Below, piece by piece: positions 5,579 through 21,684 of a stretch of DNA of 47,972 nt. The position numbers and the translations under genes are program-made. The notes under the pieces were generated by a model. That model saw nothing but the letters and a program-made list of their open reading frames with translations. It did no database searches and was not told where the DNA came from. Position 1 is the stretch's first letter. Each line of letters begins with the position of its first letter. This DNA comes from a virus, in the IMG/VR virus record IMGVR_UViG_3300024432_000018, positions 1-47,972 of that record. One strand, given 5' to 3'.

Positions 5579-6658
5579 ATGATGAGAGGAAAAATAATAA
5601 AAGACTGGGATAAGGTTGACTGGAGAAAACTCTTTGTTCCTGGAGAGAAAGACGTACAACATCAGCGTGCGCTAATGAAGGCACTTTCATTCTTTCTTGC
5701 TATTCCCAACACGAATGTTCCCACACAATTTGCTAGCGACGAGAAGTTCACAGAGAAAAAGAAAGAATTTGACACGGCCAGGATGCAATATTTTGCCACA
5801 CTGAACGATTTCCCCGCAACCGCAAAGGAAGTCATAGACAAATATCACGAACTTGCCGTATATGACAATGGTTTTGAGCAGATCTTCAATATGCGTGATT
5901 ATACCGGATCAAGAAGAGATGGCTTTTCCATTGATACAGTACGGGCAGGACTGACTTTCAGGAAGATGCTAACTGGTGAAAAACTTCATGTCTATCAGAT
6001 GGAAGGAGAGAGAGAGTTCATATACTTCGATTACTATGGCGGAGCACTTGGATGGGATAGGAAGCTCTTTGAGAACCAGGATTGGTGGCAGCTTGAGGAG
6101 AATGCGATTGAATTCAGGAATGAGGCATACAGGATCAGAGCAGCCACGTTTTATGCTTTAATTGAGGCAGTAGGTACGGCTGCTGGATGGGTTGATATTG
6201 GTTGGGCGGCTCATCCCGATGGCGTTGCAGCTGGAAATAGAGGCTATATAGCAGCAAGAGATGCTGCGACCATGAATCTTGCAGCCCAGACAATTCTTCT
6301 GGCATGTCAGGCCAGCGGTTACGGAATTTCAGCACAGAATGTCTCATTTATCATCCTTGCACCAATCCAATTGAGAGCACGAATCAAGCAGGCCCTGGGC
6401 GTAAGTTATGATACAGCAGATCGTGCGACTTCTGTTATCGACTACAATTTCACCACAATTATCACAACCATGCTTGCAGTGACAGATCATTATTGGGTAA
6501 TTCTTCCCAAGAGAAAAATTGTCGGTGGGGATAGGCTGAATTTGGAGACCTATTCTGAATTCGACATGCTTTCTCGGACGGATTCAGCAGCCGGATGGAT
6601 GGCTTTTGCAGGTGGAATTGGAGATACGGACCAGATGGAGCGTTGCAATATCGTTTAG
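5579..6658 (+). CDS. Major capsid protein
   Basis: A 359-residue protein with the length and composition of an HK97-fold capsid subunit, following scaffold and decoration genes and followed by an intrinsic terminator. The N-terminal 60 or so residues are charged and helical; the rest alternates strands with aromatic-rich stretches such as EREFIYFDYYGGALGWDRK near residues 142-162. AAGGAG lies just upstream of the ATG. The assignment rests on gene order, size and general pattern. Confidence 0.8.
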   Translation: MMRGKIIKDWDKVDWRKLFVPGEKDVQHQRALMKALSFFLAIPNTNVPTQFASDEKFTEKKKEFDTARMQYFATLNDFPATAKEVIDKYHELAVYDNGFEQIFNMRDYTGSRRDGFSIDTVRAGLTFRKMLTGEKLHVYQMEGEREFIYFDYYGGALGWDRKLFENQDWWQLEENAIEFRNEAYRIRAATFYALIEAVGTAAGWVDIGWAAHPDGVAAGNRGYIAARDAATMNLAAQTILLACQASGYGISAQNVSFIILAPIQLRARIKQALGVSYDTADRATSVIDYNFTTIITTMLAVTDHYWVILPKRKIVGGDRLNLETYSEFDMLSRTDSAAGWMAFAGGIGDTDQMERCNIV

Positions 6659-6731: not shown

Positions 6732-6962
6732 ATGACATTTAAAGCATCTGATATTAAGGTAACAATTAAAATGAAAAAGATTGTCAAATTATCAATATTA
6801 TTAAACATTTGGAAAGCTCATCTCTGTTCAGTTGATAGTTATCTTATAGCATTTTGGGCAATTACACACATAAGAATTTATTGGATTCACAAGAGAAAGA
6901 TATTCCCATATTTTGAATTATCAAAAATGGGTAGTTTGACACATTTTGGGTTAGAAACATGA
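6732..6962 (+). CDS. Hypothetical protein, 76 aa
   Basis: First gene after the capsid terminator, with AAAGGAGAG upstream of the ATG. It has a basic N-terminus and a hydrophobic/aromatic middle (residues 20-50), perhaps membrane-associated. It overlaps the following cupin gene by four bases (ATGA). The function is not recognised. Confidence 0.5.
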   Translation: MTFKASDIKVTIKMKKIVKLSILLNIWKAHLCSVDSYLIAFWAITHIRIYWIHKRKIFPYFELSKMGSLTHFGLET

Positions 6963-7300
6963 GACAAGGAAAGAACTGGGGATATACGACAGAATTCTTC
7001 CGTAATGCTATGGTCAGCACCTACCATCTTGAAATAAAGGAAGGTGGGTACTGCTCAGAGCATCGCCATAAACATAAATACAATCTGTTTTATGTTCTCT
7101 CTGGAGTATTGGAATTGACAATCTGGCGTGATAAGAAAAATAAAGATATAACTGTTATTGAAGCAGGGCAATCAACTGCAATATCACCTGGCTTTTATCA
7201 TAAATTCAAGGGATTAACAAAATGCGAGGCTATCGAAATCTATCAAGTTCTTTTGATTGATCCCGATATTGAGCGTAGAACAGTAGGGGGCATTAAATAA
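6959..7300 (+). CDS. Small cupin-domain protein
   Basis: A 113-residue single-domain cupin. The first metal-binding motif is visible as HRHKHKYN near residues 36-43, with the downstream glycine-rich turn LSGVLEL and a second motif ending in a histidine in SPGFYHKF. Small cupins of this kind include sugar epimerases/isomerases and sugar-binding proteins. At the head of the glycosyltransferase block a role in nucleotide-sugar modification is a reasonable inference, but the substrate is unknown. Confidence 0.75.
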   Translation: MRQGKNWGYTTEFFRNAMVSTYHLEIKEGGYCSEHRHKHKYNLFYVLSGVLELTIWRDKKNKDITVIEAGQSTAISPGFYHKFKGLTKCEAIEIYQVLLIDPDIERRTVGGIK

Positions 7301-7401: not shown

Positions 7402-9366
7402 GTGACCATAATAACCACGTCAGATATAAGAGTTAGTAAAATCGTAGAAGAAATGGACAGAAGAAGGGAGAACTGCAGGATTAAAAAGCAGAAAGAGGAT
7501 ATGATAAAGGCAAATTGGAAAGAACTCCATAAAAAGGGATTTGGCTATACGGCAGAGGGCAGGAAACCAGTAATTCTTGATTATGAACAGGGAAGAATGC
7601 TTTATGATATTCTGCCTGATGGATCATGGAAAAATCAAAGGTGTTTCATCATTGGAGGAGGCGAAAGCTTAAAGGGTTTCGATTTCTCCAAGTTGAAAAA
7701 CGAACTTGTGATCGGTGTGAACCGTGCTTATGAGATGGGCAACTGTACAATCAATTATGCTATGGATAACAATCTTTACCATTGGATAACGAAGGGAAAA
7801 CTAGGTTGGGAGGCAAAAAAGAGATTTAAAGATTTCAAGGGCATTCCTGTCTGGCTTGACTCTGCCGGTTATGACTATCCAAGAGGCATATTTATACTTA
7901 ATAAATTAGATAGTCATAAAAATAGTTATGTTATGAAAGATGGCATTAAATCGGGAACCAATGCGGGATTCGGTGCCTTGAATCTTGCTGTGTGCCTAGG
8001 GGCCAATCCTATATATCTCCTTGGATTCGATATGGAGGGTAAGGATGGGAAGCAAGTCTGGTGGCACAATGGATATCCCGAAAATCAAATAGAAAGGGTA
8101 TATGATAAATTCATTCTTGATTTCAAGAAAATAGTCCCAGACCTCAAAGAAAAAGGTATTCAGGTAATAAACCTTAATCCTGACAGCAAATTAAAGTGTT
8201 TTGATTTTGGAAAATTCGAAGATATAAAACCGATAAAGCGACCCGTGATCGTATCTTTTTATACAAAGGGAACCGGATATGAAGAGCAGGTAAAACAATT
8301 AAAAATTACTCTGAAGCGATTCAATCTGGAGAATGATGTTGTGGGTATTGCAGACAGAGGCAGTTGGCATAAAAATACTTATTATAAATCACAATTCATC
8401 CAGCAAATGATGAATAAGCATCGCGGACGTTCAATCGTCTATGTCGATGCGGATGCCAAGATGCGCATGAATCCTGTGTTGTTTAATAATCTTAAATGTG
8501 ATTTTGCCTGTCATTTTCACACAGGAAAAGAACTTCTTTCTGGAACGCTTTATTTTGGAAACACAAAGGGGGCTCGTTATTTAATTAAAAAATGGGTAGA
8601 AGAAGACAAGCTACATCCAGAGACCCCTATGCCACAGAAGAATCTGCGAACCGTATTTGACAGGGAGAAGAATAAAATTAAGTGGAAGGCATTGCCTGTT
8701 GAATATTGCATGATATATGACAGCCGTTCACGCTACAGAGTCAATCCAGTTATAGAGCATTTTCAGTTGAGCAGGCAGTACAAGGGTACAAAAAGCAAGC
8801 GGCACAAGGGTACAATAAATCAATCGCTTGTTGAAATACGAAAATTTTGTAAGGATAAAAAAATCTGCCTTCTCGGAAATGCCAATTCTATTCTTAATGG
8901 AAAAAAGGATATAGACTCATTTGATATAGTCTGTAGAATGAATAGGGGATATCCCGGGGGGAAAGAGAAGTTTATTGGTAGTCGTACCGATGTGCTTTTC
9001 TTATCAACGGGCTTGAGTGGTGAGAAGGTTCGGGGCTTATTTAACCCTCGTTTTGTTGTCTGGATGACCGCTTGCCATAGGTTGGCATATCCCTGGGTTT
9101 TTAAAAGTGCCGTACAAAATCCAGCAGAGGACTGGAAAGCTCTTCATAACAAGCTTTCCATAAACCCCACGACTGGCATTATGGCTTTGAATTTCATCCT
9201 CAAGCACATAGATTTTAAAAGTCTCGATATATATGGTTTTGATTTTTTCAAAACGAAGACTTGGTATAATGCAAAAATAGACAATGGACAGAAACATAGT
9301 GGGGAAAAAGAGGAAATTCTATTCATGAACATGATAAAAGATAGGCCAAATGTGAAATTCACATGA
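7402..9366 (+). CDS. Three-domain glycan enzyme: MAF/DUF115-like + GT-A-like + GT29-like
   Basis: A 654-residue fusion. Residues about 73-225 resemble the MAF/DUF115 (MptE-like) fold: CFIIGGGESLKGFDFSKLK, GVNRAYEMG, then LGFDMEG. Residues about 285-420 look like a GT-A nucleotide-sugar transferase with an acidic metal motif YVDADAKM near 345. Residues about 485-654 match the GT29 sialyltransferase pattern: large motif CLLGNANSIL...FDIVCRMNRG, small motif NPTTG near 588, and a final H...E motif (KHSGEKEEI) near 631. GT29 enzymes use CMP-sialic acid, but the donor here cannot be inferred. The start is GTG at 7402. It heads the sugar-transferase series. Confidence 0.75.
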   Translation: MTIITTSDIRVSKIVEEMDRRRENCRIKKQKEDMIKANWKELHKKGFGYTAEGRKPVILDYEQGRMLYDILPDGSWKNQRCFIIGGGESLKGFDFSKLKNELVIGVNRAYEMGNCTINYAMDNNLYHWITKGKLGWEAKKRFKDFKGIPVWLDSAGYDYPRGIFILNKLDSHKNSYVMKDGIKSGTNAGFGALNLAVCLGANPIYLLGFDMEGKDGKQVWWHNGYPENQIERVYDKFILDFKKIVPDLKEKGIQVINLNPDSKLKCFDFGKFEDIKPIKRPVIVSFYTKGTGYEEQVKQLKITLKRFNLENDVVGIADRGSWHKNTYYKSQFIQQMMNKHRGRSIVYVDADAKMRMNPVLFNNLKCDFACHFHTGKELLSGTLYFGNTKGARYLIKKWVEEDKLHPETPMPQKNLRTVFDREKNKIKWKALPVEYCMIYDSRSRYRVNPVIEHFQLSRQYKGTKSKRHKGTINQSLVEIRKFCKDKKICLLGNANSILNGKKDIDSFDIVCRMNRGYPGGKEKFIGSRTDVLFLSTGLSGEKVRGLFNPRFVVWMTACHRLAYPWVFKSAVQNPAEDWKALHNKLSINPTTGIMALNFILKHIDFKSLDIYGFDFFKTKTWYNAKIDNGQKHSGEKEEILFMNMIKDRPNVKFT

Positions 9367-9373
9367 GAAGAAA

Positions 9374-10048
9374 ATGAAAGAAGAAAAGAAAATAATTATA
9401 GCCATTCCCACTTGTTCCTCGGGGCGAATTCCCACGCTTATCAAGACAGTAGAGACAATTCAGGCTGGGGAATATAAGAATGTCCATCCGGTGATACTTG
9501 CTGACGGCAATCCAGAGATAGAAAGGGTGGCAAAAGAAAAGTTGCACCATATTTCAGTTATAGCAAACAGAAAGAGAAGGGACTGGGTATTTTCTATAAA
9601 CCGGATATTACGAGAATTCGATTCGGATTATTATATTTTTGGTTCAGATGACCTCACCTTTCAACCCCGTAGCATTAAATATGCTATGGCAAAAATGCAG
9701 GAATGTTTCCCTGATGGTTTTGGGGTTATTGCCCTTGCAAGGAAAAATAAATGCACCTTTGGTCTCTTCGGCCATAAGTTTGCTGACCATTTTCCGAATC
9801 GGCAGGTGTTTTGTCCCGACTATATACATTATGCTTCAGATTCAGAGCTTATGCGGTGTGTTAGAGCATTGGATAAATATGCTTATCCCCCAGAAAGAAA
9901 AGGCATGGTTTTGCATTCCCGGTTGAAAGATGAAACGTGGAGATTGGCGCGGCGAGTCAGGACTAGAGACCATGTAATACGCGATGAACGACAGGAAAAA
10001 GGTTATTTATGGGGAGTTGATTTTAATCTTATAACAACGAGAAGCTAA
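9374..10048 (+). CDS. GT2-type glycosyltransferase (copy 1)
   Basis: A 224-residue GT-A enzyme. The N-terminal strand IIIAIPTCSSGRIPTLIKTVETI is the nucleotide-sugar binding start of family 2, and FGSDDLTF near residues 92-99 supplies the acidic metal site. The tail contains a Trp/Arg-rich segment (KDETWRLARRVRTRD). It is paralogous to the next gene along its whole length, and their stop and start overlap (TAATG). It probably transfers one sugar to the same glycan as its copy or to a related position. Confidence 0.8.
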   Translation: MKEEKKIIIAIPTCSSGRIPTLIKTVETIQAGEYKNVHPVILADGNPEIERVAKEKLHHISVIANRKRRDWVFSINRILREFDSDYYIFGSDDLTFQPRSIKYAMAKMQECFPDGFGVIALARKNKCTFGLFGHKFADHFPNRQVFCPDYIHYASDSELMRCVRALDKYAYPPERKGMVLHSRLKDETWRLARRVRTRDHVIRDERQEKGYLWGVDFNLITTRS

Positions 10049-10734
10049 TGGAAAGAGGAATGAAGGTAACTGTAGTTGTCCCTAGCTGTTCTTCCAGCCG
10101 AACTCCTATGCTTATCAAGGGGGTTGAATCGATTCAGGCGAATACGTATAAGAATGTCCACATTGTAATCGTTGCCGATGGGAATTTAGATATATTTGAA
10201 ACTACAGGGACATATTTTGAGAACAAAGAATCGGAGAATGTTACAATCATTTTAAATAAAGAAAGGAAGGATTGGGTTTTCTCTATGAACCGAGTGTTTA
10301 AGGAGTTTGGCTCGGATTATTATATCTATGCAGCAGACGATCTCTTCTTTCCACCTGCTTGTATTGATTATGCCATGATAAAGATGTGGCAATGTTTCCT
10401 CGATGGTTTTGGACTTGTCAGCATCGGGAAAAAACATAAATGTGCATTCGGTCTTCTTGGTTATAAGTTTGTCGAGCACTTTCCAGACCGACAGGTATTC
10501 TGCCCCGACTATATACATTATGGTTCGGATGCAGAGCTTTGGTGGACTGCCAACAAGCTAGAAAAGATTGCTTATATAGCACATAGGCCAAGTTCGGTTG
10601 GCCATCATAAAATGAAAGATGAGACGTGGAGAATAGCAGAAGGGTTTAGGGCCAGGGATAATGCAATATATCATCAACGGAAGAAAATGGGTTTAAGTTG
10701 GGGAATTGATTTTAAACTTATAGCAGAAAAATGA
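10048..10734 (+). CDS. GT2-type glycosyltransferase (copy 2)
   Basis: This 228-residue protein is a tandem paralog of the preceding gene. The shared blocks are TVVVPSCSSSRTPMLIKGVESIQ, YAADDLFF (metal site), RQVFCPDYIHYGSDAEL and KMKDETWRIAE. The two copies have diverged considerably, so the duplication is not recent. Both keep the acidic motif, so both may be active, with different donors or acceptors. It overlaps the next gene by four bases. Confidence 0.8.
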   Translation: MERGMKVTVVVPSCSSSRTPMLIKGVESIQANTYKNVHIVIVADGNLDIFETTGTYFENKESENVTIILNKERKDWVFSMNRVFKEFGSDYYIYAADDLFFPPACIDYAMIKMWQCFLDGFGLVSIGKKHKCAFGLLGYKFVEHFPDRQVFCPDYIHYGSDAELWWTANKLEKIAYIAHRPSSVGHHKMKDETWRIAEGFRARDNAIYHQRKKMGLSWGIDFKLIAEK

Positions 10735-11624
10735 TTAAAATTTATTATGTTCCAACATTAGGAGAGGGTACAAGAGAGTATAGGCTTATCAAACAGGGTC
10801 TTATGAATAACTCCAGAGTTGAGCTTGTTGGCAGTAAAGAGGAAGGTGATTTTATCTTCCAGTTTTATTATCTCTCCAAACATAAACAGCATTTTCCCCA
10901 TGATCTCCCACCAGAAAAGACCGTACTCATTGATTATAGCGATAAAGTCTACTGGCTTTCTCATGTTCCGTGCTTTGCGTATTTTAAGAGAAGTTGGCCG
11001 GCGATGGTAAGAAAAGAGAATTACATTAGCAGAACACTTATTCCAAGGGCCCCTCATCTTCATCCCATAATGATGGCGATTATGGATGAGTTCATAATTA
11101 AAGAAGAAATGGAAAGAGATGTAGCACTATCATGTACATTAAGGAGACATCGGCATAGGAAGAAATACGCACACCGTAACAGAGTGAGGGTTTTGGATCT
11201 TTTGGGGAAAATGGATATTCGGGGTAAAACGTATATCGAGGAATTTAATAAGGGAACAATGCAGAGGTTCAATGCGCCGGATATGAGAGATTATTTTAAA
11301 TTATTGAAAAGGAGTAGGATCATAGTGACCTGCAATCCCGATCCGTGGGAGGGAGATCATAGAACATGGGAAGCTTTTGCAAGCGGGACGCTTGTTTTTG
11401 TCGACAGGATGTGGACACCAATGACGTATCCACTCGTTGATGGAAAACACTGTATATTCTACGATCCATCAGATCAGGGACTCGAGGAACTTCGGAAGAG
11501 GATTATATTTTATTTAGAACATGGCGAACTTGCTTATGACATTGCCAGGGAAGGTCACGATTTTACAATGAAATATCACAGGGCATCGAACAGAATAGAT
11601 GAGATATTGGATGTGATAACATGA
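10731..11624 (+). CDS. GT-B (group 1) glycosyltransferase
   Basis: A 297-residue protein. The C-terminal half carries the nucleotide-sugar binding signature of group-1/CgeB-like transferases: CNPDPWEGDHRTWEAFASGTLVFVDR (residues ~202-227), then a helix-rich end that includes YDIAREGHDFTMKYH. The N-terminal half is the acceptor-side Rossmann domain. It is shorter than typical GT-B enzymes (350-400 residues), so the acceptor domain may be reduced. ATGA overlaps on both sides place it in the same translational unit. Confidence 0.75.
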   Translation: MIKIYYVPTLGEGTREYRLIKQGLMNNSRVELVGSKEEGDFIFQFYYLSKHKQHFPHDLPPEKTVLIDYSDKVYWLSHVPCFAYFKRSWPAMVRKENYISRTLIPRAPHLHPIMMAIMDEFIIKEEMERDVALSCTLRRHRHRKKYAHRNRVRVLDLLGKMDIRGKTYIEEFNKGTMQRFNAPDMRDYFKLLKRSRIIVTCNPDPWEGDHRTWEAFASGTLVFVDRMWTPMTYPLVDGKHCIFYDPSDQGLEELRKRIIFYLEHGELAYDIAREGHDFTMKYHRASNRIDEILDVIT

Positions 11625-12226
11625 ATTTCCCTAATGGATGGCTATCGGGAAAGCAGGCTTCATATCTGGCGCAGCTTGTGAGAGATGTTGTTGGAGTGGA
11701 GGGTGGGTTCCTTGAGGTGGGCTCATGGCATGGCCGCTCTTCGGTTGTCATAGGGTTAGAGGTCAAGAAATTAAATAGCTGCCTTTATTGCGTGGATATA
11801 TGGAGTAAAAAAATGGTGGGAGAAGAGGAGAAAAAACGCAAGAAGACAATAAAGGCGTACAGGGATATGCCTGATGTGGCAGCGATATATTTTAAGGGGG
11901 ATTCTTTTCTCATCTTCATCGAAAATATTAAAGTGAATGGCTTAGGTGATACTATAATTCCCGTCGTAGGACTCTCTTCGACGGTAAGGGCAACATGGAA
12001 AATTCCCCTTAGATTCATTTTTATAGATGGTAATCATGAGTATGAATATGTACGTGATGATTCTCTGTGGAGACAGTTTTTAACGATCGGGGGAATTATA
12101 GCTTTTCATGATTATCGGCGGGGGAGCGAGGTCAAAAAAGCTGTCAATGAAGAAATGGATAATGATTCTAATTTTGAAATGATAGGCGGGATTCATAACA
12201 TTAAAGTATTCAGGAGATTGAAATGA
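11621..12226 (+). CDS. SAM-dependent methyltransferase (Methyltransf_24-like)
   Basis: A 201-residue class I methyltransferase. Motif I is GGFLEVGSWHGRSSVVIG near residues 28-45, the acidic strand is LYCVDIW near 59-65, and the FIFIDGNHEYEYVRDD block near 133-148 is typical of Methyltransf_24. A late strand AFHDYRRGSEV follows. In a glycan cluster it could O-methylate a sugar, but a nucleic-acid or protein target is not excluded. Overlaps both neighbours. Confidence 0.8.
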   Translation: MNFPNGWLSGKQASYLAQLVRDVVGVEGGFLEVGSWHGRSSVVIGLEVKKLNSCLYCVDIWSKKMVGEEEKKRKKTIKAYRDMPDVAAIYFKGDSFLIFIENIKVNGLGDTIIPVVGLSSTVRATWKIPLRFIFIDGNHEYEYVRDDSLWRQFLTIGGIIAFHDYRRGSEVKKAVNEEMDNDSNFEMIGGIHNIKVFRRLK

Positions 12227-12753
12227 ATTTGGATAATTATCTGCCAAGACTCAACTTGAAGACAGTAGAATTCTTAAAGAAAATCATAACACCAGAGAGT
12301 TTAGTTTTTGAGACTGGTTCAGGTAATTCGACTATTTGGTTCGGAAAGCAGATCAAAAAAGTTGTTGCACTAGAGGATAATAGAGATTGGTATGATAAAG
12401 TTCGGGAATTTGCAAAGCAAGAAAATCTACAGAATATAAAATTATATTTTGATCCCGACTATTCAAGAAAACAATTCAAAGACATACTGAAAAAAGAGGA
12501 TATTATTGAATATGACATTGTTTTACATGATGGGCCACACAGTGTGGGCTTGAGAATATCGGCGATGAAATTTATACATTCCTTTGTAAAGCCAGGTGGA
12601 TATCTTATTATCGATGATACGCATAAAAGCCAATGTTCGGAAGCGACAAAAAAGTATCTCAATATTTTACGTTGGAAGAAATTAGTCTTTTATGGGCGCG
12701 ATGCTTTCAGAGCAAAGAAATCCGCCATTGTTTATCAAAGATCTTTAAGATGA
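12223..12753 (+). CDS. SAM-dependent methyltransferase
   Basis: A 176-residue class I methyltransferase with a motif I variant (VFETGSGNSTIWFG, residues ~28-41), an acidic strand VVALEDN, the YDIVLHDGPHS block, and PGGYLIIDDTHKS before the last helices. The ETGSGNST form differs from the VELG form in the next three genes, so it is a separate lineage. It overlaps the preceding gene by four bases. Confidence 0.75.
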   Translation: MNLDNYLPRLNLKTVEFLKKIITPESLVFETGSGNSTIWFGKQIKKVVALEDNRDWYDKVREFAKQENLQNIKLYFDPDYSRKQFKDILKKEDIIEYDIVLHDGPHSVGLRISAMKFIHSFVKPGGYLIIDDTHKSQCSEATKKYLNILRWKKLVFYGRDAFRAKKSAIVYQRSLR

Positions 12754-12769
12754 ATGAGGAAATAATTTT

Positions 12770-13348
12770 ATGAATTTAGAGCTTTTTAATAATCTCATGA
12801 AAGAGAAACCAGAACAACAGGAATATGAATGGTTAATGTTTCTGGAAATTTGTGAGACATATTTAAAAAAGCACAAAATCGGAAGCCCCATTATTGTGGA
12901 ATTAGGAGCATATAGGAACTGCCAAAAGAAATTTTACGAACAACTTCTTGGAGCTGAACACATAGGCATTGATGTAAAAGCGTGGCGACATCCTGACATT
13001 GGAGGAAGCACCCATGATCCCAAAACACTAGAGAAGCTCAAGGAGAAACTCAATGGGAGACCAATAAATATCCTCTTTATCGATGCCAATCATCGCCATG
13101 AGAGTGTCAAGAGAGATTTTGAGATATATTCTCCATTATGTACTGATATCATCGTGATTCATGATACAGAAAGTGGCCGATATGAAAACTCAAGAAAGTA
13201 TGAGGTCTGGAGGTTCTGGGATAAATTGAAGAAAGAGTCATTCACGGTAAGAGGAGAGCTTGAAAATTTCTTATTTCTTTCGATACATCAGCATCGTTTT
13301 GAGGGGAATGAATATGAGATGGGAATAGGGATGATAATAAAAAGATGA
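12770..13348 (+). CDS. CmcI-like methyltransferase, tandem copy 1
   Basis: The first of three consecutive paralogs (192 residues). Shared features are a helical N-terminus (MNLELFNNLM), motif I VELGAYRNCQKKFYEQLLGA, the acidic strand GIDVK, NILFIDANHRHESVKRDFEIYSPLC, and a HDTESGRY strand. This is the cephalosporin-hydroxylase/CmcI-type O-methyltransferase layout. AATAATTTTATG upstream gives only a weak ribosome site. It probably methylates sugars or acts on a related surface modification; the substrate is unknown. Confidence 0.75.
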   Translation: MNLELFNNLMKEKPEQQEYEWLMFLEICETYLKKHKIGSPIIVELGAYRNCQKKFYEQLLGAEHIGIDVKAWRHPDIGGSTHDPKTLEKLKEKLNGRPINILFIDANHRHESVKRDFEIYSPLCTDIIVIHDTESGRYENSRKYEVWRFWDKLKKESFTVRGELENFLFLSIHQHRFEGNEYEMGIGMIIKR

Positions 13349-13905
13349 ACTTAAAACTTTTCAATGAACTTACAGAAATGCCATTGGCTCAGGATGTGCA
13401 TGAGTGGAAGGTATTCCTAGAGTTTTGCGAGTCATATTTGGAGAAACATAAAATTGAAAAGCCCATTGTCGTAGAATTGGGTATATGGAGAAATGGGCAG
13501 AAGAAATTTTATGAACAACTTCTGGGGGCATATCATATAGGCATTGATTCATCTAAGAAAAAAAGTAGACCTGATATTCAGGGAAATACGCATGATCCAA
13601 GAACGCTGGAAGCGCTTAAAGCAAAGCTTGGAGGAAAACAAATAGATATTCTTTTCATAGATGCCTCTCACTTGTATGATGATGTGAAAAAAGACTTTGA
13701 GATATACTCACCATTATGCAATGGTATCATTGCGTTCCACGATATAAATAACGGTCGATATCAAGGAGAAAGAGAAGTCTGGAAATTATGGGATGAATTG
13801 AAAGCAGAATCAACCATAGAGGCGGGAAAATATAAGGACTTTTTGTTTATCTCAATAGAAGAGGCAAGGGGGATAACAGGAATAGGACTGATGATAAGAA
13901 AATGA
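13345..13905 (+). CDS. CmcI-like methyltransferase, tandem copy 2
   Basis: The second paralog (186 residues), overlapping copies 1 and 3 by four bases at each end (ATGA). It keeps motif I (VELGIWRNGQKKFYEQLLGA), DILFIDASHLYDDVKKDFEIYSPLC, and the FHDINNGRY strand. Sequence similarity to copy 1 is high over the middle and lower at the ends. Close head-to-tail copies fused by overlap suggest duplication within the operon. Confidence 0.75.
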   Translation: MNLKLFNELTEMPLAQDVHEWKVFLEFCESYLEKHKIEKPIVVELGIWRNGQKKFYEQLLGAYHIGIDSSKKKSRPDIQGNTHDPRTLEALKAKLGGKQIDILFIDASHLYDDVKKDFEIYSPLCNGIIAFHDINNGRYQGEREVWKLWDELKAESTIEAGKYKDFLFISIEEARGITGIGLMIRK

Positions 13906-14495
13906 ATTTAAAACTTTTTAACAAGCTCATGGAGATACCACCACTCCAAACCAGAGACGAGTGGTGGATATTTCTAGAGATTTGCGACTTTTATTTGAAG
14001 GAACGTAAGATCAAGAATCCCATTGTCATGGAATTGGGGAGTTGGAAGGGCAGGCAAAAACCATTCTATGAACAACTTTTTGGGGCCACATATATAAGCA
14101 TTGACCGCTCTAAGAAGGGATACGGGCCTGAAATTCAAGGACTCACTAGTGATCCCAGAACACTAGAAAGGCTCAAGGAAAGACTTGCAGGAAGGCAAAT
14201 AAACATCCTCTTCATTGATGCTGACCATCATTATGAGGCAGTTAAAAGCGATTTCGATATGTACGCACCACTGTGTGATGATATTGTTGCGTTTCATGAT
14301 GTAAATTATCCATCAATTATGAGACTTTGGAATGAACTGAAGGCGAAACCGTCTGTCTCGCCAACAAAGGAAAAAGAGTATCTGTCACCAATGTGGTTAA
14401 ATCTAAGCATAGAGGAAAGAGGATGGGTAGATAAGGATAATATATTTATTTTAATAGAGATGGCAAGTGGAATTGGGATGATGATAAAGAAATGA
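13902..14495 (+). CDS. CmcI-like methyltransferase, tandem copy 3
   Basis: The third paralog (197 residues). Motif I is VMELGSWKGRQKPFYEQLFGA and the acidic block is NILFIDADHHYEAVKSDFDMYAPLC. It differs from copies 1 and 2 by a longer insertion near residues 160-185. The three copies all keep the SAM-binding and acidic residues, so all may be active with different acceptors. Confidence 0.75.
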   Translation: MNLKLFNKLMEIPPLQTRDEWWIFLEICDFYLKERKIKNPIVMELGSWKGRQKPFYEQLFGATYISIDRSKKGYGPEIQGLTSDPRTLERLKERLAGRQINILFIDADHHYEAVKSDFDMYAPLCDDIVAFHDVNYPSIMRLWNELKAKPSVSPTKEKEYLSPMWLNLSIEERGWVDKDNIFILIEMASGIGMMIKK

Positions 14496-15103
14496 AAAAA
14501 TTTATTTTCTACACGGCAGTTTTTGGAAAAAAGTGCAACTGGAAAAAGCCGATATATTCCGATCCGACTATAGATAGGTTTTTTTATACAGATTTGGAAA
14601 TCACAAATGATCTTTATCAGATGAAAAGAATAAAGTTAGATTATCTTGATCCAGTCAGAAGAAACCGATTTATAAAAATCTGCATCCCCGATGAGATATT
14701 CAATAATTATGAATACAGTTTTTATATGGATTACAAACATCCAGTAGCAATTGATTTTGATTATCTCCTAAATTGCCTGGAATCGAATTCTGATATCTTA
14801 ATAACCCCACACAGAAGGAGAGATTGTATTTATGATGAGGGAATGATCTGTATTAAGGGGAAGGAAAATAAAAAAGAGATTATTTTGAAACAATTAGATT
14901 TTTATAAACGTGAAAATTATCCAATCCACAATGGACTTTATGCTGCGTATTGGCTCTTTAGGCGACACACCAAGGAACTGGAAGAGTTTTCAAGGCAATG
15001 GTGGAAGCAAGTTGAAAAATATTCATATCGGGATCAGATAAGCCTTCCCTATGTGGCCTGGAAATATGGGATGAAAATTTCTCCGTTCAAGAGGCCTAAA
15101 TGA
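14492..15103 (+). CDS. DUF616-like glycosyltransferase (copy 1)
   Basis: A 203-residue protein with the DUF616/TOD1-type glycosyltransferase layout: FYTAVFGK at the start, DRFFYTDLE, then YSFYMDYKHPVAIDFDYL (residues ~73-90), where the acidic residues are likely to replace a DXD metal site, and PHRRRDCIYDEG. The C-terminus ends DQISLPYVAWKYGMK. It overlaps the preceding methyltransferase and is followed by a paralog that overlaps it by four bases. Confidence 0.7.
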   Translation: MKKFIFYTAVFGKKCNWKKPIYSDPTIDRFFYTDLEITNDLYQMKRIKLDYLDPVRRNRFIKICIPDEIFNNYEYSFYMDYKHPVAIDFDYLLNCLESNSDILITPHRRRDCIYDEGMICIKGKENKKEIILKQLDFYKRENYPIHNGLYAAYWLFRRHTKELEEFSRQWWKQVEKYSYRDQISLPYVAWKYGMKISPFKRPK

Positions 15104-15717
15104 AGAAGTTTGTTCTTTATACGGCAGTTTTCGGGAAGTTGGGCAAATCTAGGACACCTCAGTTGTCTAATCCAGATGTGGATAGATTTTGTTATACAGA
15201 TTTGGATATTAATGATGAGTTCTATCAAATAAGAAAGATGAATCTGGATCATCTTGAGGCAGTTAGGAGACAACGTCTGATTAAAGTCTGTATTCCTGAT
15301 GAGGTTTTTGACAATTATGAATACAGTTTTTATGTAGATCGTAAACATCCAATAAAGGTCGATTTTGATTATTTTCTGAGCTTGTTAGAACCCCAGTCTG
15401 ATTTTGCAACACGTCCACATCGATACAAAAGAAGAACCTGTGTTTATGAAGAGGGGCGGGTTTGTATTGAGGGGGGAAAGGGTAATGAAGCAGATATCTT
15501 AAAACAATTAGAATTTTATAAAAAAGAAAATTACCCGGTTGATAATGGACTTTATGCCACGTTTGTTTTGTTCAGGCGACATACAAAAAGATTGAAAGAA
15601 TTCTCAAGATTATGGTGGGAACAAATTGAGCGGTATTCACACAGAGATCAGATAAGCCTTCCTTATGTGGCCTGGAAATATGGGATGAAAATTTCTTTAT
15701 GTAAGAGATCGAGATGA
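15100..15717 (+). CDS. DUF616-like glycosyltransferase (copy 2)
   Basis: A 205-residue tandem paralog of the previous gene, with the same blocks: LYTAVFGKLGK, RFCYTDLD, YSFYVDRKHPIKVDFDYFL, PHRYKRRTCVYEEG and DQISLPYVAWKYGMK. The last block is nearly identical in both copies and in their DNA, which indicates a fairly recent duplication or gene conversion at the 3' end. Confidence 0.7.
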   Translation: MKKFVLYTAVFGKLGKSRTPQLSNPDVDRFCYTDLDINDEFYQIRKMNLDHLEAVRRQRLIKVCIPDEVFDNYEYSFYVDRKHPIKVDFDYFLSLLEPQSDFATRPHRYKRRTCVYEEGRVCIEGGKGNEADILKQLEFYKKENYPVDNGLYATFVLFRRHTKRLKEFSRLWWEQIERYSHRDQISLPYVAWKYGMKISLCKRSR

Positions 15718-16505
15718 CAGAGTTAATTACGCTTATTACTCCTACAGGAGATAGACCGCTGGCCTTTGCTCTCTGCCAAAATTGGGTTAGAAAACAAACC
15801 CTGCAACCTTATCAATGGATTGTTGTTGATGATGGAAAGATACCCATGATTCCTTATGCTCCGATGGCTTATATAAGACGAGAACCAGGGGTCAATGATC
15901 CACAGTGCACATTAATCCTTAACCTCATGACCATTCTCCCATTAATTGAAGGCAATAAAATCATAATCATTGAAGATGATGAATATTATGCTCCTAAATA
16001 TGTGGCAGAAACAGCAACTCGACTTGACCAGCATGAAGTTGTGGGCATTGGCGGTACTAAATACTACCATTTGTTTTCAGGTGGACATTATAGCCATAGA
16101 AACTGGGGTCATGCTTCTCTTGCCCAGACGGCATTTCGAAATTCATTTTTGCCAGAATTTAAAAAAATATTAAATACGAATATTGAAATTGCTCGGATAG
16201 ACAAGCATATATGGGAAAAACTTAGGGGGAGTGGTCGCGGAAATATTTTTGGTGATGATGATAATGACCCATTGTATTTAGGCATAAAGGGCTTGCCCGG
16301 TCGTCCTGGCATAATAGGGCATGATCCAAAATCTAGCCCTTATCACAGGAAGGGTTCTCACCCCGATATATCTCATAAAGTTCTAACGCGATGGATACCC
16401 GAAGATTGCGATATTTATATAGATATAATTAAGGGAAAATTGACGGAGGATAATTGTCAATCGTATTTCCTAAATCAAGGAAAGAATAAAAAAGGGCAAT
16501 TATGA
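15714..16505 (+). CDS. GT-A type glycosyltransferase
   Basis: A 263-residue protein. It starts with a family-2 strand (LITLITPTGDRPLAFALCQNW) followed by WIVVDDGK; the metal motif is IIIIEDDEYY near residues 82-91. Residues ~175-200 contain a Gly/Asp-rich loop (GSGRGNIFGDDDND). It has more divergence from the 9.4-10.7 kb pair than they have from each other. It overlaps both neighbouring genes by four bases. Confidence 0.75.
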   Translation: MTELITLITPTGDRPLAFALCQNWVRKQTLQPYQWIVVDDGKIPMIPYAPMAYIRREPGVNDPQCTLILNLMTILPLIEGNKIIIIEDDEYYAPKYVAETATRLDQHEVVGIGGTKYYHLFSGGHYSHRNWGHASLAQTAFRNSFLPEFKKILNTNIEIARIDKHIWEKLRGSGRGNIFGDDDNDPLYLGIKGLPGRPGIIGHDPKSSPYHRKGSHPDISHKVLTRWIPEDCDIYIDIIKGKLTEDNCQSYFLNQGKNKKGQL

Positions 16506-19502: not shown

Positions 19503-19964
19503 ATGAGTTTGGGATGGTTCGATGATCTCACGGATGCGAAGGCTTATTTTTCAACCGAGAGGCTTGTGACAACTAGCTGGGACGCAATGATCGACGCACT
19601 CAAAACCAAAGCCGTAACGAATGCCTATAACCGGATATTCTATAATTCCAAATATGACGTACCGACCTATGCTGCAGCTACGGCTGCCCAGTTGATAGTG
19701 TTAAAGAAGGTGAATGGTGAGATGGCTTATTATTTGGCACAGCATCTAGAGGATGAGGACAGGCGCATGGGCTTGCGCGCGCAAGGAGTTACAAAAGCAG
19801 GGATAGTAGAGGAAGAATACAAGGATGACATAGAGCTTCCTATCCCTCCGTTCATTGATGACATATTAGAAGAGGAGGGTTTTACAACCGAGAAGGCATT
19901 TGGTATGGTAGATGTGGACAGAGACGAGGATAAATCCGTTGATGAAAAGGTCGATAAATTTTAA
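19503..19964 (+). CDS. Head-tail connector-like protein
   Basis: A 153-residue helical protein with a DnaT-like/gp6-type head-tail connector pattern: MSLGWFDDLTDAKAYFSTERL followed by several helices and an acidic tail. Its position before the minor head and head-closure genes fits an adaptor that docks under the portal. GGAGGTTAAG precedes the ATG. Confidence 0.6.
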   Translation: MSLGWFDDLTDAKAYFSTERLVTTSWDAMIDALKTKAVTNAYNRIFYNSKYDVPTYAAATAAQLIVLKKVNGEMAYYLAQHLEDEDRRMGLRAQGVTKAGIVEEEYKDDIELPIPPFIDDILEEEGFTTEKAFGMVDVDRDEDKSVDEKVDKF

Positions 19965-19975
19965 GAAGGTGAAAA

Positions 19976-20548
19976 ATGCCTTGGAAATATAATCCATTCA
20001 CAGGAGAGCTGGATTATTTCTCTGTGGATATAACACCGACATTAAGTGCACTATGGATGGATGCGCAAGCCATAAGAGCACCCACAACAAATCCAGCAGA
20101 ATTAATATCTCACGGTACATTAGAAACTCCCGCATTCCAGTTTGCAAATGCAATTGAGGCTAATCAAGAAAATATAACCTTTAATATGCGAATACCAAAT
20201 CGAATGGATAGAAGCGTAGCTTCTTGTATTTCTGTTGGTTGGAGTGCTGATGGTTCAAGTCCTGGTAATTGTAGATGGCAGTTAGAATATCTATGGACAG
20301 CGCCAGGAGAAGACACGGGAGCGGGAGCACAGGAGACCCTCTATGTGACAGGCACGGCAGCAGTCGTAGCAGATGGTTTAATCATAAGCACATTTACAGG
20401 CATAGATTTGCCGAGTGCAACAGATGTTTGTCTTCATTGCAGAATAACAAGGCTCTCGGCAGATGCCCTTGATACAATAGGTGATACCGTAGAGCTTCAT
20501 GGTATTTGTCTTGGTTGGGTAAGTGATAAATTAGGTTTACCAATATAA
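19976..20548 (+). CDS. Appendage protein with N-terminal NPFTGELDYF motif
   Basis: A 190-residue beta-rich protein. Its N-terminus (MPWKYNPFTGELDYF) is the short anchor motif seen in many phage fibre and head-appendage proteins. The rest is a beta-sandwich rich in Thr, Ala and Gly with several cysteines. It is likely to be an exposed virion component, and a possible substrate of the glycosyltransferases encoded upstream. Confidence 0.65.
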   Translation: MPWKYNPFTGELDYFSVDITPTLSALWMDAQAIRAPTTNPAELISHGTLETPAFQFANAIEANQENITFNMRIPNRMDRSVASCISVGWSADGSSPGNCRWQLEYLWTAPGEDTGAGAQETLYVTGTAAVVADGLIISTFTGIDLPSATDVCLHCRITRLSADALDTIGDTVELHGICLGWVSDKLGLPI

Positions 20549-20562
20549 TATAGGAGATAAAA

Positions 20563-20790
20563 ATGAGTCAAGGAGGATTATGGTCTGAACGAATAAGATA
20601 TGATGCGCAAAATAGGGTACAATATATTGCAAAAGCAGTGGCAGGAGCGGATGAAGATGCCTTGGTATGGCAAATTTCACGCTATTATTATGACGGCACT
20701 TCAACGAGAATTCTGGATACACTATGGGCAGGTGGCGATAGTTCGCAGAAATGGAGTTTTACTTTGCGAGAAACTTACACTTATTCATGA
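20563..20790 (+). CDS. Hypothetical structural-region protein, 75 aa
   Basis: A short beta-type protein (AQNRVQYIAKAV...VWQISRYYYDG). The ATG has an upstream GGAG. Its size and place directly after a fibre-anchor gene suggest a companion of that protein. No family is recognised. Confidence 0.5.
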   Translation: MSQGGLWSERIRYDAQNRVQYIAKAVAGADEDALVWQISRYYYDGTSTRILDTLWAGGDSSQKWSFTLRETYTYS

Positions 20791-20796
20791 TGATTA

Positions 20797-21684
20797 ATGG
20801 CAAACATATTAGGACGCATCCCCCTGAGAGAAAGAGTCAGGGAGCTTGAGAGGATATACGGAGTGATCGAAAGAGAGATGGCAAGAGAGATGGCATCGAT
20901 GGATATCGGAAACTATCGAGAACTGCGGGCAATTAGAACGCAGGAGAAAATTGACGGATTGGTGAAAATGCTGAACAGAGCGGCAATAAAATGGTCAAAA
21001 AAAGCTGTCCCCGAAGCCTATGAGAGAGGATATTCGGTAGCTAGGATACGACTTGAGATACTCGGGGTGCAGAAAGATGAGGAGTTTCCCGAAAAAACAC
21101 ACGCCCAGACTATCAAATACGAGACAGATAAAACAATGGATGTTTTAATTAGAGCTAATCAGAGCATAAAGATGAATGTGGCAACCTTTATTTATTTGGC
21201 ACGAGCAGCGGCAAGAGGGTTATCGCAGTTCCAGGCTTTTGATATGAGGGATGAGGAATTGATTGATAATCTTTTAGGTGATGCTTTGAGGGCGGGAGAA
21301 ACAAGAGCATATGCCGCTAAAGCGGTGAGGGAACATTTCAGTGAACGATTTGGTAATGCTAAATTTATTACGATAAACGGACGGGATTATAACCTGCGGA
21401 AATATGCTGACTTGGTAGCTAAGACAAGGTTGAGGGTTGTCCAGACCGAGGCTGTCAAGAATAGCTGTAAAGAGTATGAGAACGACCTTATCCAGATATC
21501 CTCTCATGGCACAGATTGTCGGAGTCTTATCTGTCAAGAATATGAGGGCAATGTCTATTCGATATCGGGGCAACATCCCGTTTATTCCATGCTACCTGCT
21601 TGGCCTCCGTTCCATCCCCGATGTCAACATCATGCCCGTCCGACTTCCGAAGTGGCTATTGAAGTGAGTGCTAGATATGCTTAG
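20797..21684 (+). CDS. Minor head protein (Mu F/SPP1 gp7-like)
   Basis: A 295-residue protein. Residues 1-200 are helical and end in the KTRLRVVQTEAVK motif. The C-terminal end has the typical Cys/His-containing strand block CQEYEGNVYSISGQHPVYS, then LPAWPPFHPRCQHHARPT. This is the Phage_Mu_F / minor-capsid family, which binds the portal and is present in a few copies per head. It is usually encoded next to the portal; here it is about 18 kb away, downstream of the glycan and fibre genes. Confidence 0.85.
   Translation: MANILGRIPLRERVRELERIYGVIEREMAREMASMDIGNYRELRAIRTQEKIDGLVKMLNRAAIKWSKKAVPEAYERGYSVARIRLEILGVQKDEEFPEKTHAQTIKYETDKTMDVLIRANQSIKMNVATFIYLARAAARGLSQFQAFDMRDEELIDNLLGDALRAGETRAYAAKAVREHFSERFGNAKFITINGRDYNLRKYADLVAKTRLRVVQTEAVKNSCKEYENDLIQISSHGTDCRSLICQEYEGNVYSISGQHPVYSMLPAWPPFHPRCQHHARPTSEVAIEVSARYA

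Follow-up and report, generated by a model that had tools for sequence, protein, structure and literature searches.

The 654-residue protein encoded at positions 7402-9366 of this virus record combines three glycosyltransferase-like modules in one chain, a MAF/MptE-like module (D1), a GT-A module (D2) and a GT29 module (D3), each with a predicted fold and conserved candidate residues. The fusion recurs in other contigs, D1 is linked to the major capsid gene, and the modules behind D1 are exchanged between related loci. We read this, with slightly better than even confidence, as a MAF-like domain that initiates glycosylation, is dedicated to a virion protein, likeliest the major capsid protein, and is joined to swappable glycan-extending enzymes.

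The window, i.e. the whole stretch of 47,972 bases that was analysed, is the complete virus record, and its terminase, portal-like gene, capsid gene and tape measure identify a tailed phage. All features given here lie on the plus strand. The major capsid protein gene, whose product is the proposed acceptor (5579-6658), matched Phage_capsid_4 of Pfam slightly below the cut-off (E = 8.2e-6), and its gene order is kept: the succession of portal gene, 3879 gene, 5143 gene and capsid gene is conserved in related loci. The 5143 gene, directly upstream of the capsid gene, has a weak head-decoration match. Only a gene for a cupin-domain protein (6959-7300; Cupin_2, E = 1.4e-8), perhaps a sugar isomerase, separates the capsid gene from the 7402-9366 gene; in related loci it either precedes D1 in the same way, directly after the capsid gene, or stands between D1 and D2 where these are split. 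The 7402-9366 frame starts with GTG and is free of internal stops.

Downstream follows a transferase island, after which the head genes resume. It comprises two tandem GT2 genes (9374-10734; PF00535, E = 4.5e-9 and 1.2e-9), a Glyco_trans_1_2 gene of GT-B type (10731-11624; PF13524, E = 2.1e-15), five tandem Methyltransf_24 genes (11621-14495; PF13578 in all five), which are probably paralogues, and two TOD1_MUCI70-like transferase genes with a GT2-like gene (14492-16505; PF04765, E = 2.7e-12 and 2.2e-14; PF00535, E = 2.6e-4). The TOD1_MUCI70-like pair stands in tandem at 14492-15717; this family is known best from plants. The head genes restart with the 19503 gene and a minor head protein gene at 20797-21684 (together 19503-21684; PHROG 4611, E = 3e-30), in an order that matches related loci. 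No RNA families or tRNAs were found in the window.

The earlier note on this DNA had proposed three transferase-like modules in one 654-residue protein, and family searches, profiles and comparison of AlphaFold models with the PDB support all three. D1 spans residues about 60-277 (7579-8232) and is defined by profiles, structure match and conserved residues. All 27 D1 relatives matched PF01973 (best E = 4.8e-8); for the window copy itself, the score fell below the Pfam cut-off. The family, named for MptE-like proteins, covers both MAF and the pterin diphosphokinase MptE. Residues 84-275 matched PHROG 4603, annotated as 'alpha-2,3-sialyltransferase' (E = 7e-24), and a D1 profile search of the PDB returned the GT42 sialyltransferase Cst-II at E about 1e-3. 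Within the full AlphaFold model, D1 aligned with the MAF structure 5mu5 from residue 60 onwards (Z = 15.8, 195 residues, 3.6 Å). N107, D122, N187 and D210 are invariant among the 27 relatives, H222 is present in 25 of them, and in related loci D1 also occurs as a standalone gene beside transferase genes. MAF proteins transfer nonulosonic acids onto flagellin Ser/Thr, and their central domain resembles Cst-II (PMC11339370). The MAF-like assignment of the earlier note thus holds for the central domain of MAF; the N-terminal Rossmann-like and C-terminal helical MAF domains are absent from the model of the 654-residue protein. The boundaries that the earlier note gave for D1 and D3 (73-225 and 485-654) were slightly short.

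Residues 1-60 are modelled mostly as one helix and a disordered stretch. Ahead of the helix is an N-terminal ITT(R/S)(D/N) motif that several capsid-linked D1 proteins share at their start, in two copies in L203 and L206, and that also begins some small unrelated head-region proteins (window 7411-7500; L203 7839-10142; L008 10-246; L200 2120-2365); it is perhaps a docking tag.

D2 begins at about residue 279 and extends to about 461 (8236-8784). The D349-A-D351 motif carries the two aspartates of the DxD-type transferase that the earlier note had proposed; both are invariant in 53 of 53 D2 relatives. The nucleotide-diphospho-sugar transferase family PF03407 was matched by 31 of these 53 relatives, the window copy not being among them, and the D2 profile gave no significant match in the PDB. 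In the full AlphaFold model, residues 279-461 aligned with the glycosyltransferase 2p72 of virus PBCV-1 (Z = 17.5, 178 residues, 2.9 Å).

The assignment of D3 (residues about 475-654; 8824-9363) to GT29, also anticipated together with its large, small and H/E motifs, rests on Pfam, a profile search of the PDB and a model of its own. PF00777 matched window D3 above its curated cut-off (26.9 bits versus 23, E = 4e-6) and all 21 D3 relatives (best E = 1.6e-17). The D3 profile retrieved ST3Gal-I (7e-12), ST6Gal1 (3e-9) and ST8SiaIII (8e-9), followed by GT42 Cst-II. The structure-match list of the full model was filled by D2 matches, which makes the lack of GT29 or Cst rows there uninformative, and D3 was therefore folded alone (pLDDT 89.8, pTM 0.88). 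This model aligned with ST3Gal-I (Z = 14.0, 166 residues, 3.0 Å), and all human GT29 structures scored above GT42, with the Cst enzymes at Z about 12, archaeal HPPK at 11.1 and MAF at 8.8. The L (492-516) and S (588-616) motifs and H632-x4-E637 are all present; among the 21 relatives, the VS-motif histidine is kept in 18 and the glutamate in 17. The structure prediction and domain-wise searches that the earlier note had called for thus returned GT29 for the C-terminus and MAF for D1. Homology between D1 and D3 was also considered: their profiles aligned in collinear fashion, though weakly (probability 12%, E = 0.0025), and the claim is limited to a related fold.

GT29-like proteins are also frequent in Paracoccus, Thioclava, other Rhodobacteraceae and Thiomicrospira relatives (L113-L192), and some of them have 560-643 residues with an N-terminus that carries no family assignment. 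None of the 80 bacterial loci from a genome scan with a narrow alignment contained a D1 or D2 module. A viral GT8-GT29 fusion occurs at L013 7338-8513 (PF01501, E = 1e-26; PF00777, E = 1e-16), and GT29 proteins of similar length are present in L015 and in the Elusimicrobia contig L115.

The full-protein AlphaFold model was built from a 30-sequence alignment that leaves out D3-only rows, many of which MAFFT aligned with D1. It reached pLDDT 85.2 and pTM 0.63, the latter value making the placing of the modules relative to each other uncertain. Searching with the whole protein retrieved two contigs at 71% over the full length and one D1-D2 relative; part-by-part searches extended this to more than 100 loci, on all frames of which the three module profiles were then run. 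The triple fusion occurs in six further contigs representing four lineages (L002/L003, L008/L009, L010 and L035; 71, 64, 64 and 59% identity to the window protein), which rules out an assembly chimera or a frameshift. D1-D2 fusions number 24 non-redundant sequences, and D1 and D2 are also seen as separate neighbours. D3 forms its own gene directly before a D1-D2 fusion in L069, L071, L079, L090 and L092, and directly before a D2-bearing protein in L005 and L019. The presence of the same modules fused in some genomes and separate in others suggests that they share a job.

In 18 separate contigs, the homologous capsid gene is followed by D1. These include the triple-fusion loci that have upstream DNA (the window, L002, L008 and L035) and fourteen others (L030, L031, L036, L038, L041, L050, L053, L066, L076, L086, L093, L094, L101 and L105); in L037 and L077, capsid proteins of other PHROG families are encoded a few genes upstream. 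Searching from the capsid side recovered 15 loci, five of which end soon after the capsid gene, and in all ten with DNA downstream D1 comes next, either directly or with a cupin gene in between. The two counts overlap, several contigs being identical, and we attach no probability to them because of this overlap and because the contigs are related by descent. The linkage persists until the capsid proteins are only about 40% identical. The genes of a divergent D1-D2 clade have lysis genes or PhoH nearby and not the capsid gene; the modules are thus not bound to the head in every case.

Behind the constant D1, the remainder of the protein varies, a pattern that a single sequence could not reveal. 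This remainder consists of GT-A plus GT29, of GT-A alone (L197, which is the contig of L094, and L207), of a stretch with a GT2 domain at its end (L195, L203 and L206; 768-769 residues) or of one with a GT9 domain at its end (L198; 890 residues); in the GT2- and GT9-ending proteins Pfam confirms only the last domain, and the middle stretch was read as transferase by eye. The window and L195 have capsid proteins that are 78% identical and D1 modules that are 64% identical, and do not share the tail, whereas the window and L002 share only 49% in the capsid protein and 73, 77 and 73% in D1, D2 and D3. Judged by these identities, the tails are exchanged independently of the capsid. Across 22 loci, capsid and D1 identities correlate with r = 0.61, and the two are therefore linked, not strictly co-inherited.

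The D1 profile also recognises proteins of cultured phages: Orf7 of PMG1 (E = 5.5e-20), gp126 of CcrColossus, two proteins of XacN1 and two of Tetraselmis virus S20. A search with PMG1 Orf7 found Orf7 of Pseudomonas phage D3 (93%) and PmgO of P1 (33%, 2e-23), so that, by sequence comparison, the D1 family reaches the Pseudomonas phages PMG1 and D3 and, through PMG1, P1. In PMG1, the genes for the major head protein and the head-tail adaptor flank it, and the relative in PAJU2 follows the head closure gene. The CcrColossus relative comes after a tail gene and precedes genes for a nucleotide-diphospho-sugar transferase, a methyltransferase and a GT9; the neighbours of P1 pmgO are pmgP, ppp and the glycosyltransferase gene pmgQ. 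The D1 relatives in CcrColossus, P1 and XacN1 do not adjoin a capsid gene. In a study of 29 knockout mutants of P1, 24 plaqued normally, and the essential genes were pmgA, B, C, G and R; PmgO is not named in the text of that study (PMC9024508). Proteomics identified at least two virion glycoproteins in XacN1, which its authors tie to other transferase genes, ORF328 and ORF334 (PMC5852040). Tetraselmis viridis virus S20 (L212) has an algal host on record, yet its head operon is of tailed-phage type and contains two D1-family genes amid transferase genes, and its true host may be a bacterium.

We infer the activity, donors, acceptor, order of steps and purpose of the 654-residue protein as follows. 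The constant D1 would recognise a protein of the virion, most probably the product of the upstream major capsid gene, and link the first sugar to its side chains, in the way that MAF modifies Ser/Thr of flagellin. D2 would extend the glycan with a sugar from a nucleotide-diphosphate donor, and D3 would cap the chain using a CMP-sugar, for example sialic or another nonulosonic acid, the single chain of modules handing the growing glycan onward. By replacing the C-terminal modules, a phage could alter its own surface glycan. No CMP-sugar synthesis genes were detected in the 47,972-base record with PF02348 and PF03102, so the donors would come from the host. The earlier note had imagined a flagellin-like glycosylation step; D1 retains the corresponding fold and a putative protein-modifying role, with no flagellin involved. 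Since the record is that of a phage, with only a cupin gene between this head-operon gene and the capsid gene, a protein of the phage head, and not flagellin, is the probable acceptor.

Glycosylation of the capsid protein agrees with the place of PMG1 Orf7 in a head operon, with the virion glycoproteins of XacN1, which has two D1 relatives, and with the action of MAF on Ser/Thr. Against it count the other genes favoured by the XacN1 authors, the clade near lysis genes or PhoH, the D1 relatives away from capsid genes, the lack of CMP-sugar genes and the pTM of 0.63. GT29 and GT-A enzymes often act on glycans, and this, with the divergent D1-D2 clade adjoining lysis genes, would fit a fusion whose target during infection is a glycan of the host surface (O-antigen, capsule or wall polymer), as in a defence against superinfection; its location among the head genes would then reflect late expression only. 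We consider this unlikely: the linkage of D1 to the capsid gene, tight down to about 40% capsid identity, weakens it, and the PMG1 relative too sits between capsid and connector genes.

A somewhat smaller chance is given to another virion protein (decoration, tail or fibre) as the acceptor in place of the capsid protein. The positions of the D1 relatives after a tail gene in CcrColossus and after head closure in PAJU2 are in its favour, as is the weak head-decoration match just upstream of the capsid gene, but in the relatives of the window it is the capsid gene that is the constant neighbour. Finally, D1 could be a nucleotide-binding or targeting domain of MptE-like fold, leaving sugar transfer to D2 and D3, given that PF01973 is also named for MptE, that the window copy is under its cut-off and that archaeal HPPK, which matches D3 at Z = 11.1, has a related fold. 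This appears improbable in view of the MAF match at Z = 15.8, the recovery of Cst-II by profile, the four invariant residues with the nearly invariant H222, and the D1 genes that stand alone beside transferase genes. For the head-operon family as a whole, we propose tentatively, at a little less than even confidence, that a capsid-dedicated MAF-like enzyme with interchangeable transferases diversifies the sugar coat of the head, in a manner like surface-antigen variation.

The module families are known. As far as the searched literature shows, neither the fusion nor its capsid-gene linkage nor the exchange of tails has been described. No prior description of a phage MAF, of GT29 in phages or of a capsid sialyltransferase was found in that literature, which mostly excludes subscription journals. 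The data suggest that these phages give their own heads a sugar coat that can be changed. The protein provides a GT29-like module of compact size from a bacterial virus, as well as a natural case of several glycosylation enzymes joined in one chain whose parts can be exchanged, and the GT29-like proteins of bacterial genomes bear on the origin of the GT29 family. Orf7 of phage D3 and PMG1 and PmgO of P1, annotated only as sialyltransferase-like or 'putative morphogenetic', offer D1-family candidates in laboratory phages.

These phage proteins are the closest known counterparts by family, and that of PMG1 lies directly in the head operon; Orf7, PmgO and gp126 of CcrColossus are single-domain proteins whose accompanying transferases are separate genes, unlike the window protein. 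The best structural match of D2, the PBCV-1 capsid glycosyltransferase (2p72/2p6w), takes part, according to its depositors, in glycosylating the PBCV-1 major capsid protein; it is a single-domain enzyme of an algal virus with 11% identity to D2, and likeness of fold is no proof of shared function. With the GT29 sialyltransferases (ST3Gal-I, ST6Gal1, ST6GalNAc2 and ST8SiaIII), D3 has the sialyl motifs, H-x4-E and fold in common, but it is a compact module of 180 residues, about 20% identical to ST3Gal-I, within a phage fusion. MAF (M. magneticum 5mu5 and C. botulinum CbMaf) shares its central-domain fold with D1 and a protein-modifying role, putative for D1, next to the gene of the acceptor. 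In contrast to MAF, which has N-terminal Rossmann-like and C-terminal helical domains (PMC11339370), D1 is without both, is linked to a capsid gene and is fused to further transferases.
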